The position numbers were made by a program, and so were the translations under genes. The notes beneath the pieces were generated by a model. It was not told where the DNA came from and ran no database searches. It worked only from the letters and a program-made list of their open reading frames with translations. A DNA stretch of 55,015 nt. Origin: Flavobacteriales bacterium. GTDB taxonomy: Bacteria > Bacteroidota > Bacteroidia > Flavobacteriales_E > Vicingaceae. Each line of letters starts with the position of its first letter. The stretch's first letter is position 1. The stretch is taken from assembly GCA_002706365.1 (NCBI GenBank), contig PALM01000007.1, positions 1-55,015 of the forward strand. Direction: 5' to 3'. Positions 8,008-12,312 of this stretch are shown piece after piece.

Positions 8008-10566
8008 CTAAACAACTATATTGACAATCTTCCCCGGCACCACAATCACCTTCTTAGGAGCCTTGCCTTCCAGCCATTTTTGGGCGTTTTCATGGGATAG
8101 GACAGTTTCTTCTACCTGATCCTTTGGCATATCTGCAGGCAGCTCCAACATAAAGCGCATCTTTCCATTGAAGGAAACAGGATATTTCACTTCATCCTGC
8201 TTCAAATGGGCTTCATTGAACTTTGGGTAAGGGAGTTTGGAAATGGATCCTTCATGACCCATTTTTGAACTTAGCTCTTCGCTAATATGAGGCGCAAATG
8301 GAGAAAGTAAGATGCATAGCGGTTCTAAGATCGAGCGTTTGTTGCATTTGAGATCCTGCAATTCATTCACGCAGATCATAAATGCACTCACGGCTGTATT
8401 GAATGAGAAGGATTCTATGTCTTCACTTACCTTTTTAATGCATTTGTGAAGGCTTCTAAGCTCTTTCTTATCTGCAGCCTCATCAGATAGTTCTAATTCA
8501 TTCTGATCGTTGTGATAGAGTCTCCAGAACTTTCTCAGAAAACGATGCACTCCTTCTATGCTATCTGTATCCCATGGCTTGGATTGCTCCAATGGTCCTA
8601 GGAACATTTCAAATAGTCTAAGTGTGTCTGCTCCGTATTGAGCAACAATATCGTCTGGGTTGACCACATTGCCATATCGCTTGCTCATCTTTTGTCCGTC
8701 AGAAGCCAAGATCATACCTTGGTTGATCAATTTCTTGAACGGCTCGTCTGTACTAAGATATCCGCTATCAAATAAGAACTTTGTCCAGAAGCGAGAGTAG
8801 AGTAGGTGACCGGTAGCGTGTTCTGCCCCTCCAAAATAGAGATCTACATTCTCCCAATACTTCAAACTTTCTTCAGATGCAAATCCGTTCTTTCTCTCCA
8901 GATCCATATAGCGGAATAGGTACCAGCTACTGCCAGCCCATCCAGGCATAGTTGAAGTTTCTATTGGATTTCCCTCAAAACTCCAATCTCTTGCTCTTGC
9001 AAGCGGTGGTTCGCCAGTTTCTGTGGGTTTGTATTCGTCGATCTCAGGAAGGCGCAGTGGTAACTCATTTTCGGGAATTGCCTTGGCCATTCCATCTTTA
9101 AAATAGATCGGAATGGGCTCTCCCCAGTAGCGTTGACGAGAGAATACGGCATCACGCAGACGGTAATTGATCTTTCCTTTACCTATTCCTTTCTCTTCAA
9201 CTACAGAGATGCTCTTTTTGATTGCATCTTGAACACTCAGTCCATTCAGGAAATCGGAGTTCACGATCTTTCCATCTTTGCGATCATCGGCACCTTCACT
9301 TACATCTTGTCCTTCAATAACTGGAGGGATCTCCAATCCGAATTTCTTTGCGAAACCCCAATCTCTTTGATCTCCGGAAGGTACTGCCATAACAGCCCCT
9401 GTTCCGTATCCCGCTAACACATAATCTCCAATCCAGATTGGTATTGCTTCATTGGTAAAAGGGTGGATGGCATAGGCTCCAGTAAATTCTCCACTTACGG
9501 TTTTTACCTCGCTCATTCTTTCTCTTTCAGATCTTGAAGCGGCATATTTCTGATAGGCCTTTACCTTTTTTGATTGCTCCTTACTGCTGATTTCATCTAC
9601 CAAAGGATGTTCAGGTGCAAGTACCATGAAAGAGGCTCCGAAAATTGTATCCGGACGAGTGGTAAATACTTCTATCTCATCCTCGCGATCTGCTACCTTA
9701 AAGCGAATGCTTGCGCCCTCGCTCTTGCCTATCCAGTTTCTCTGGATCTCTTTAAGTGCATCGCTAAAGTCGATCTTGTCCAATCCTTGAAGTAAGCGTT
9801 CAGCATAGGCTGTGATGCGCATACTCCATTGTTTCATTTTCTTGCGCTCAACGGGATGACCTCCTCTCTCCGATTTGCCATCTTTGATCTCGTCGTTGGC
9901 GAGAACGGTTCCCAAAGCCGGACACCAATTCACAAATGAGTCTGAGAGGTAAGCCAGGCGATAATCCATAAGGATATCAGCTTGTTCTTTCTCATCCATC
10001 TCTTGCCATTCGGCTGCTGTGAAGCTGATCTCACTGTCTGTGTGAGCATTTAGCTTAGATGAACCTTCTTTATCGAATATTGAGATAAGTTCTTCTATAG
10101 ATCTTGCTTTATCGGCATCCTTATCATACCAAGAATTAAAAAGCTGAAGAAAGATCCACTGTGTCCATTTGTAGTATTCTGGGTCGGATGTCTTTACTTC
10201 TCTATCCCAATCATACGAAAAGCCAATAAGGTCTAATTGTCTTCTATAAGTGGCTATGTTATTTTCTGTGGTGATCCTTGGATGTTGCCCTGTTTGGATG
10301 GCATATTGCTCGGCAGGCAGGCCAAAAGAATCATAACCCATTGGGTGCAAGACATTATAACCGAGGTGTCGCTTGTAGCGCGATACAATATCAGAGGCGA
10401 TATATCCCAATGGATGCCCAACGTGAAGTCCGGCTCCGGAAGGATATGGAAACATATCTAAAACATAGAATTTTTCCTTTTGGCTATTCTCATCTGCAGC
10501 AAAAGTCTTTTGCTCGCTCCAATAGCTTTGCCAGCGTTTTTCGATCTCTGAAAAGTTGTAATCCAT
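8008..10566 (-). CDS. leuS: Leucyl-tRNA synthetase
   Basis: An 852-residue class I aminoacyl-tRNA synthetase charging tRNA-Leu. The HIGH motif appears as HVGH (residues 48-51, in [15 protein letters not shown]) and the KMSKS motif as KMSKR at 626-630. A CP1 editing domain lies between them, including the [20 protein letters not shown] editing-site region. The [13 protein letters not shown] segment before KMSKR and the C-terminal anticodon-binding helices and small tail domain (ending [15 protein letters not shown]) are also present. Length is close to the bacterial norm. The gene is single and flanked by repeat-rich intergenic DNA. Confidence 0.97.
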
Positions 10567-10592: not shown

Positions 10593-10808
10593 GTATGAAA
10601 TTAGGGGATTTGCAGGCTATATGGAACTTCAAAAATAAAATAGAAACCTAATTAGATGTATCTACGTATAACAGAACTTAGAATGTCAATTTCCAGCGAA
10701 AATCAACAAGTCTTTGACTTTTAGATGAATAGTATGATTCGTTCGATGAAAAAGGAAAAAATTCGATGAATGATGTAAAAAAAGCAACGAACGAATGAAA
10801 ATAATCGA

Positions 10809-10816
10809 TATATTTG
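10809..10816 (+). promoter_or_regulatory. Candidate -7 element of a small RNA
   Basis: TATATTTG, an exact TAnnTTTG match, placed so that transcription would begin near 10822, just before the self-complementary segment that ends in the 10909-10945 terminator. No -33 TTG is seen at the usual distance. Confidence 0.4.
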
Positions 10817-10821
10817 TATTG

Positions 10822-10945
10822 CGAACCTAAGTTAAGGTTGAACCTAAGAGTAACCAATACGAAGCTTGTCATCTTATCTTTTAGTGTTTGACACAGTCTT
10901 AACTTTTTAAAGCCATCATTACACCATAATGATGGCTTTTCTCTT
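10822..10945 (+). ncRNA. Candidate structured small RNA, possibly 6S-like
   Basis: A stretch of about 120 bases bounded by a -7 element and a strong terminator, with no plausible plus-strand reading frame. AAGTTAAG (10829-10836) is exactly complementary to CTTAACTT (10898-10905), closing the structure. Inside, CTAAGAG (10844-10850) pairs with CTTTTAG (10878-10884) with one G-U, extendable by TAA/TTA across a bulge. The two stems are separated by a large asymmetric internal loop, an architecture that recalls 6S RNA. This is a fold read by eye: the unit could instead be another sRNA or a leader. The minus-strand frame at 10678-10872 that overlaps it has no family resemblance. Confidence 0.4.
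10909..10945 (+). terminator. Intrinsic terminator of the candidate small RNA
   Basis: AAAGCCATCATT (10909-10920) and AATGATGGCTTT (10928-10939) form a perfect 12-bp stem with a 7-base loop, followed by TCTCTTTT. No plus-strand protein gene precedes it for more than 300 bases, so it must end a non-coding transcript or act on minus-strand transcription. Confidence 0.85.
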
Positions 10946-10982
10946 TTATATTTTTTTCACAATTTAATTATCGTCATAAAGG

Positions 10983-10990
10983 TATTTTTG
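10983..10990 (+). promoter_or_regulatory. Candidate -7 element giving a near-leaderless mRNA
   Basis: TATTTTTG, an exact TAnnTTTG match, only 7 bases before the ATG at 10998. The expected start site falls on or just before the start codon. No -33 TTG at standard spacing. Confidence 0.4.
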
Positions 10991-10997
10991 AATCACT

Positions 10998-11381
10998 ATG
11001 ATTCAGGTTGGGACAAGCGTGTTTAGTAAATGCCTTTGGGGTCTGATGGCAGTTTACCTGCTCAATATTTCTATTGATCCGGCAGATCCGAATCCAGAAA
11101 ATATTCCCGAAGACCTTAGCTTCAATGATCAGGAGAGTATAATTGAAGTGGTTGTAGAGAAGTTCCTAGGATTTGAAGATGCAATAAAAGAGTATGACGA
11201 TAACGATTCTGATGATAATCAGAATAAGAAGCAGTTTAAGGTTGATATTTTGACTTCCAATAGTGGAATCGATCAAAGCGGATTGAATGATCCATCCCTT
11301 AAAGTTCAGTATTATCCCAACCAAGAATTTAGATTAGTTAATGGTTTCTTTGAAGTAGATAGCCCACCGCCCAAAGTTTGA
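10998..11381 (+). CDS. Small membrane-anchored acidic protein, conserved, function unknown
   Basis: 127 residues. A hydrophobic segment at about 9-24 leads into NISIDPADPNPENIPEDLSFNDQESI, a block I recall as conserved in Bacteroidota proteins of this size. It is followed by VVVEKFLGFEDAIKEYDDND and an Asp-rich linker, then a short C-terminal part with YYPNQEFRLVNGFFEV. The N-terminal segment could be an uncleaved anchor or a signal peptide. An internal Met17 is an alternative start, but the first ATG keeps the hydrophobic segment. The next gene follows on the same strand after 70 bases with a hairpin between, so the two are probably linked. Function unknown. Confidence 0.75.
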   Translation: MIQVGTSVFSKCLWGLMAVYLLNISIDPADPNPENIPEDLSFNDQESIIEVVVEKFLGFEDAIKEYDDNDSDDNQNKKQFKVDILTSNSGIDQSGLNDPSLKVQYYPNQEFRLVNGFFEVDSPPPKV

Positions 11382-11451: not shown

Positions 11452-12312
11452 ATGAACAGAAATAAACTGTGGATGCCACTAATTTTATTGGTATTTTACT
11501 CCTATTGCGAAGCACAAATCAGTGACGCACAGAAAGATAGTCTCTATATTAATCAAGTAGAGAATAAAGACGAACCAGATAAGGTATTGCATGCAGAACC
11601 ACTTTATATTGATTTGATTCGAGACCTAGGAGCCAGGAAGGGTGAACGGGAATGGAATGTTGGATTAGGTCTGACAGATAAGCTTAAGTTCGATTCGTAT
11701 GAGGCTCTGATCGAGTATGAATGGGCGCCTATTGATAGGTTGGGTATTGAAGTTGAGTTGCCCTTTACTTTTTACTCAGCCGTAAATGGAACAGAAGCTT
11801 CAGCAGTGCCATCTAACCAGCTTAATAGCATAAAGGTGGCTGCTCAGTGGTCCTTTTTTGTTAATGAAGCCATGGCAACCTCTATGGCTTTGGGATATAT
11901 TAATGAAATTGAATTGAGCGACTTTAATCAATTTGGTAGACCATTGATCAAAGGGAATGTATATAATCCCTTTCTAGTGGTGGCCAAACGTTGGAGCAAC
12001 AATTTTCATTCATTGATCTACACTGGGCCCAAGATCGAGCAGCAATTCAATTCTAATAAGTTTAACACTACCTACGAGGCCAACACGAGTTTTCATTATA
12101 TGATTTCAGGTACCAGGAACTTTATTGGTGTTGAGTTTAATAAATCATTTGCACAAAGTGACTTCGACATGACCATTAGGCCTCAGATGAGATTGGGGAT
12201 AGCTGACAATTTGTTAGTCGGTATTGTCGCTGGAATACCGGTAAATCGTGAAAACCAAAGACTCAGCTCCTTTGTACGGTTGATATGGGAGCCTGGGCAT
12301 AATAGTCACTAG
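11452..12312 (+). CDS. Conserved outer-membrane beta-barrel-like protein, function unknown
   Basis: 286 residues with a signal peptide (hydrophobic 6-17, likely cleavage after CEA before Gln22). The mature start HAEPLYIDLIRDLGARKGEREWNVG is strongly patterned and recalled as a conserved Bacteroidota block. The rest alternates amphipathic strands (YEALIEYEWAPIDRLGIEVELPFTFY, AAQWSFFVNEAMATSMALGY, HSLIYTGPKIEQQF), ending SSFVRLIWEPG, consistent with a small outer-membrane barrel. It is paired with the upstream 127-residue gene; the pair may form one envelope system. No enzymatic motif is seen, and the barrel is an inference from strand periodicity. Confidence 0.75.
   Translation: MNRNKLWMPLILLVFYSYCEAQISDAQKDSLYINQVENKDEPDKVLHAEPLYIDLIRDLGARKGEREWNVGLGLTDKLKFDSYEALIEYEWAPIDRLGIEVELPFTFYSAVNGTEASAVPSNQLNSIKVAAQWSFFVNEAMATSMALGYINEIELSDFNQFGRPLIKGNVYNPFLVVAKRWSNNFHSLIYTGPKIEQQFNSNKFNTTYEANTSFHYMISGTRNFIGVEFNKSFAQSDFDMTIRPQMRLGIADNLLVGIVAGIPVNRENQRLSSFVRLIWEPGHNSH

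Follow-up and report, generated by a model that had tools for sequence, protein, structure and literature searches.

A probable lineage-restricted small RNA of Bacteroidia with a conserved apical loop as its proposed seed

The gap beside leuS in a genome of Bacteroidia holds what is very probably a real RNA gene, whose product is probably a lineage-restricted regulatory small RNA (sRNA) presenting AAGCUUGUCA(UCUU) as a loop seed. The unit occurs in three genomes of two genera, this one included, where it is found in the neighbourhood of engB; its stem is compensated, its loop is conserved and it belongs to no Rfam family. An earlier note had proposed a promoter, an RNA and a terminator following one another without a gene, as a candidate small RNA, and this proposal is borne out by the presence of the unit in two genera, its position beside engB and the compensatory changes of its stem.

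The window analysed is a 55,015-nucleotide stretch of contig 7 of G000, a 3.0-Mb draft genome of Bacteroidia whose order consists of a single family, represented by 46 genomes in the collection. A 430-base gap between leuS (8008–10566, minus strand, TIGR00396) and a plus-strand ORF starting at 10998 contains TATATTTG, a hairpin and a terminator. The listing of ORFs gives no plus-strand frame of at least 40 amino acids overlapping 10599–10997, in agreement with the earlier note. The exact TAnnTTTG that it had described is indeed present on the plus strand; by itself, the motif is not significant, since the window contains 23 occurrences for 41 expected from shuffles. The elements of the unit are as follows.

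10809–10816, plus strand: promoter −7 element TAnnTTTG (TATATTTG), an exact match to the motif as in PMC9723704.
10822–10828, plus strand: probable 5′ end and leader CGAACCT, inferred from the sequence and its identity with the G001 locus L002.
10829–10836, plus strand: 5′ arm of the lower stem, AAGTTAAG, with its partner at 10898–10905 (fold, stem comparison).
10837–10850, plus strand: 5′ arm of the upper stem, GTTGAAC+CTAAGAG, with its partner at 10878–10892 and one bulged T (fold, stem comparison).
10851–10877, plus strand: apical loop of 27 nt, the proposed seed (fold, homolog comparison).
10862–10871, plus strand: conserved loop segment AAGCTTGTCA, common to two genera (homolog comparison).
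10878–10892, plus strand: 3′ arm of the upper stem, CTTTTAG-T-GTTTGAC, which includes TTAGTGTTTG (fold, stem comparison).
10893–10897, plus strand: 5-nt bulge ACAGT on the 3′ side (fold).
10898–10905, plus strand: 3′ arm of the lower stem, CTTAACTT (fold, stem comparison).
10909–10939, plus strand: intrinsic terminator with a 13-bp stem, a 5-nt loop and the U-rich tail TCTCTTTTAT (terminator scan).

As a separate observation, the count of TAnnTTTG, set against dinucleotide shuffles, amounts to a depletion throughout the window, as if the motif were avoided outside promoters.

The start site would lie a few bases past the −7 element, and the lower stem begins no more than about 8 nt from the 5′ end of the RNA. 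The minimum free energy fold consists of a lower stem AAGUUAAG/CUUAACUU, an upper stem GUUGAAC-CUAAGAG/CUUUUAG-U-GUUUGAC, a 3′-side bulge ACAGU and a 27-nt apical loop, followed by the terminator; the hairpin spans 10829–10905 in total. Both pairings of the earlier note, a self-closing segment and an inner stem CTAAGAG/CTTTTAG (10844–10850 with 10878–10884), are recovered in this fold, and a 7-bp middle helix GTTGAAC/GTTTGAC lies between them. What had been taken for a wide internal loop or central bubble is the apical loop, in which ACGA/UUGU form at best a marginal 4-bp pairing. The scan recovers the terminator on the plus strand, with a stem of 13 bp where the earlier note had given a perfect 12 bp. 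Folding gives z = −3.98 for 10800–10960, terminator included, and z = −1.72 for the core without it; as the folding energy of the core is weak alone, the real support comes from comparison.

The closest homolog, in a genome of the same genus (G001), is 89% identical over 10804–10904 by BLAST. Along the 22-bp stem, counted without the marginal ACGA/UUGU, seven positions are substituted and no pair is broken. Three pairs have changed on both sides (AT>TA, TA>AT and GC>AT), so that the search for compensatory changes in relatives suggested by the earlier note gave a positive answer; random placement of seven substitutions keeps all pairs in only 265 of 2,000,000 simulations. Promoter and leader, starting with TCGATATATTTG (window 10805–10828), are identical in 24 of 24 columns, the loop is identical at 25 of 28 positions, and the sequence ACAAT of G001 fits the 5-nt 3′ bulge. 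Over the 100-bp upstream flank the alignment is no better than shuffles, and over the 100-bp downstream flank it is moderately better (60.5 vs 45.4, sd 6.5). The terminator sequences are alike in 19 of 37 columns with the hairpin in the same place, and three terminator stem pairs are compensated, a count that is not strong alone. Seen across the relatives (window 10909–10939, L002 1606–1633, L021 2105–2141), the terminator sequence has turned over almost wholly while the position of the hairpin has been kept.

A diverged third copy was found in another genus (G031) by scanning the engB neighbourhoods of the family with R1, a two-sequence model (E = 3.2e-6). Alone, this copy folds into the same shape, with a predicted 5-nt 3′ bulge TAACC, and it keeps CUUUUAG and AAGCUUGUCA, the latter being invariant in the three homologs. 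The three homologs have in common a single stem, interrupted by a 5-nt bulge and capped by an apical loop of 21–28 nt. Because only three genomes carry the RNA, the covariation rests on few changes. R2, a model of all three homologs, revealed no convincing further member in the 46 genomes of the family and, with filters off, nothing under E 0.1 in the engB neighbourhoods examined except G001 and G031. Exact pattern scans of public genomes returned JAUIGQ010000012.1 (G001) and JAUIMG010000001.1 (G031), both ‘Bacteroidia bacterium’ MAGs, as the only homologs. The further public-genome sites are not homologs by model score, nor is a viral match, and BLAST against plasmids gave no match. A BLAST match in G021 (L006) was rejected as it lies inside a coding gene and folds unlike the RNA, and R1 matches in G034 (L013, L027) cover little beyond short hairpins. 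As far as seen, the RNA is confined to two genera.

The surroundings of the three copies are partly shared. In G001, engB directly adjoins the RNA and is oriented towards it, and upstream are the genes of a HisKA_3 kinase and a NarL-type response regulator; the G031 copy stands between an orthologous-looking NarL-type response regulator and engB. In the window’s genome, the two-component genes do not adjoin the RNA and leuS is found upstream instead. Two genes, 10998–11381 and 11452–12312 (HAEPLYID family), separate the RNA from engB here; G001 and G031 have neither of them in that interval. The ORF at 10998–11381 encodes 127 amino acids and has no Pfam or NCBIfam match.

G001 also contains a second hairpin with a terminator (L020, about 1399–1490), about 75 bases past the first terminator, which looks like a diverged tandem duplicate. 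Its terminator is perfect (GGGGUUGUC-UUA-GACAACCCC, then UUCUUUUU). With the terminator left out it folds only weakly (z −0.12), and the search upstream of it gave no TAnnTTTG. The stem is different, and the loop, AACCAAUA-GCUUGUCAUCU, is that of the first copy minus a few bases: GCTTGTCATCT of the window loop is common to the sibling hairpin, and GCUUGUCAUCU is kept in its loop. That the loop was kept while the stem changed is the best indication that function resides in the loop.

The earlier note had likened the hairpin to 6S RNA, and a 6S RNA, be it 6S-Flavo or a diverged relative, would bind RNA polymerase through a bubble resembling an open promoter and act as the template of pRNA. The length, the stand-alone unit and the shape of the hairpin are in keeping with such an RNA, and RF01685 matches nothing in the whole of G000, so that no other 6S RNA is seen there. 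This search is, however, low in power, RF01685 scoring 38–83 bits in 5 of 149 genomes of the class, none over the curated cut-off; the failure to locate a 6S RNA elsewhere in G000 thus says little. The model does work in the class, the positive controls L014, L015, L017 and L018 matching by the same tool. When the family was searched for the pattern ACTCAAC...GGAGTT, matches were about as frequent as with the reversed control, and the true 6S RNA of G000 was not located. Against a 6S identity, the scan of 10780–10980 with all Rfam families gave 17 matches at E up to 10, none of them 6S, 6S-Flavo or Bacteroidales-1, so the covariance check that the earlier note had called for turned out negative. 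The conserved ends of 6S-Flavo, ACUCAAC (5′) and GGAGUUU (3′), are absent from 10805–10945, as is the AAACUUGU of that family. The fold has neither a central bubble nor a terminal stem(-loop), its unpaired part being at the tip, and TTAGTGTTTG, in which the earlier note saw a vague resemblance to a −7 element by the bubble, is paired, as part of the 3′ side of the stem. Finally, 6S RNA is broadly conserved, and the present RNA is missing from most of its own family. A 6S identity is thus highly improbable.

Another reading would make the hairpin a leader or attenuator acting in cis on the gene at 10998, or a by-product of the ends of leuS or engB. In the window, the ORF does begin 58 bases past the terminator, but TATTTTTG stands at 10983–10990, just upstream of it. 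Neither G001 nor G031 has that gene at this place; what comes next there is engB, in the opposite orientation. This leaves nothing in cis to control and makes the explanation very unlikely. Just as little credit can be given to a hairpin without function or to a feature of the minus strand, either a 64-aa ORF (10678–10872) or a minus-strand terminator. The core folding energy is ordinary (z −1.72), as would be expected of such a feature, but the minus-strand ORF is broken in G001 by a 1-base insertion in the loop, with no comparable ORF from the same ATG. The U-run follows the terminator stem on the plus strand only, which also speaks against the reservation that the terminator might serve minus-strand transcripts alone, and the compensatory changes and the conserved promoter argue for a plus-strand RNA. 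More weight, although still on the unlikely side, is due to a protein-binding RNA whose loop would be a recognition or sequestration site and which would act by titrating a protein and not by base-pairing. A conserved loop on a variable yet maintained stem, its tandem repetition in G001 and the adjoining two-component system in G001 and G031 speak for it, a two-component neighbour being the arrangement of some titrating sRNAs. On the other hand, the loop motif occurs just once or twice per genome, GGA-type repeats are lacking, and we know of no Bacteroidota protein with such a target.

The favoured mode of action, more likely than not, is base-pairing with a seed in the loop. A regulator of this kind fits because the RNA has its own promoter and terminator, a maintained stem and a nearly invariant loop. 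The sequence presents several features expected of a trans-acting base-pairing sRNA, namely a promoter, a Rho-independent terminator, the absence of an ORF, a compensated structure and a conserved unpaired seed. In the proposed mechanism, RNA polymerase with the housekeeping sigma factor would start from TATATTTG, and the predicted transcript of about 115–120 nt would end at the 13-bp terminator. The RNA would fold as one long two-part hairpin holding out a 27-nt single-stranded loop, of which chiefly AAGCUUGUCAUCUU may be the working part. The loop would most likely base-pair with mRNAs from other loci, around their translation starts, and this pairing would change the translation or stability of the targets. 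Transcription, the ends of the transcript, the targets and a possible connection with the two-component system seen in the relatives are predictions at this stage.

Exact ATGACAAGCT sites, the complement of the seed, number 8, 11 and 2 in G000, G001 and G031, against 4, 5 and 2 in the reversed sequence used as control, own loci included (one of the 8 sites in G000 is the RNA gene itself). The search for seed-complement targets across the three genomes gave no conserved site. In G000, the best site is perfectly complementary over 13 nt and ends right at the TTG start codon of a yfiR-like gene (DUF4154). G001 retains 9 nt of this complementarity and G031 none, and a start region within the window pairs as well. 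This candidate is a lead, not evidence, and is not statistically convincing. Upstream of the yfiR-like gene (L139 963–1499, minus strand; also L145 and L146), all three genomes share the conserved segment AAAAGTTTATTACTTTTA.

Outside Bacteroides and Flavobacterium, little of the regulatory RNA repertoire of Bacteroidota has been mapped, and the RNA described here is covered by no Rfam model. For annotation, this would be a real RNA gene where gene finders leave a blank. If it is a loop-seed sRNA, the G001 pair would be a natural experiment on a small scale, showing on which part of the RNA selection acts. A more speculative and rather doubtful extension is that of a new sRNA family, from an uncultured lineage of Bacteroidia, in which the apical loop of a rigid hairpin exposes a long seed. 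Such a family would be coupled to the NarL-type two-component system next to it and would duplicate by keeping the loop and replacing the stem.

Among known systems, 6S-Flavo (RF01685) and Bacteroidales-1 (RF01693) are likewise stand-alone RNAs of about 110–180 nt with a long hairpin, but the present RNA differs from them in having no model match, no conserved ends, no central bubble and no terminal stem. Spot 42 of gammaproteobacteria (spf, RF00021) is also a small stand-alone RNA directly beside engB/yihA; its upstream neighbour is polA, in place of the two-component system or leuS found here (PMC3295665). RF00021 is not among the matches of the scanned region at E up to 10, and the common engB neighbour is most likely a coincidence. 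Rfp18 of Flavobacterium is, like this RNA, a strongly structured Bacteroidota sRNA conserved beyond one species and with pairing predicted via a stem-loop; compared by description only, it differs in having at least three stem-loops (PMC9723704). GibS and FopS of Bacteroides thetaiotaomicron are, like this RNA, intergenic sRNAs of Bacteroidota with Rho-independent terminators, in which a conserved single-stranded seed pairs with start-codon regions (PMC7366714, PMC11697453); FopS further has canonical housekeeping-sigma promoters and paralogs sharing the seed (PMC11697453). Target pairing is proven for GibS and FopS and only inferred here. Their seed, called R1 like the model above, lies in an unstructured 5′ end, an arrangement that the present RNA lacks, its 5′ end soon entering the stem. 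Here the proposed seed is instead held at the tip of a long hairpin, in its apical loop, which, if the RNA is a loop-seed sRNA, would represent another seed architecture in the phylum.
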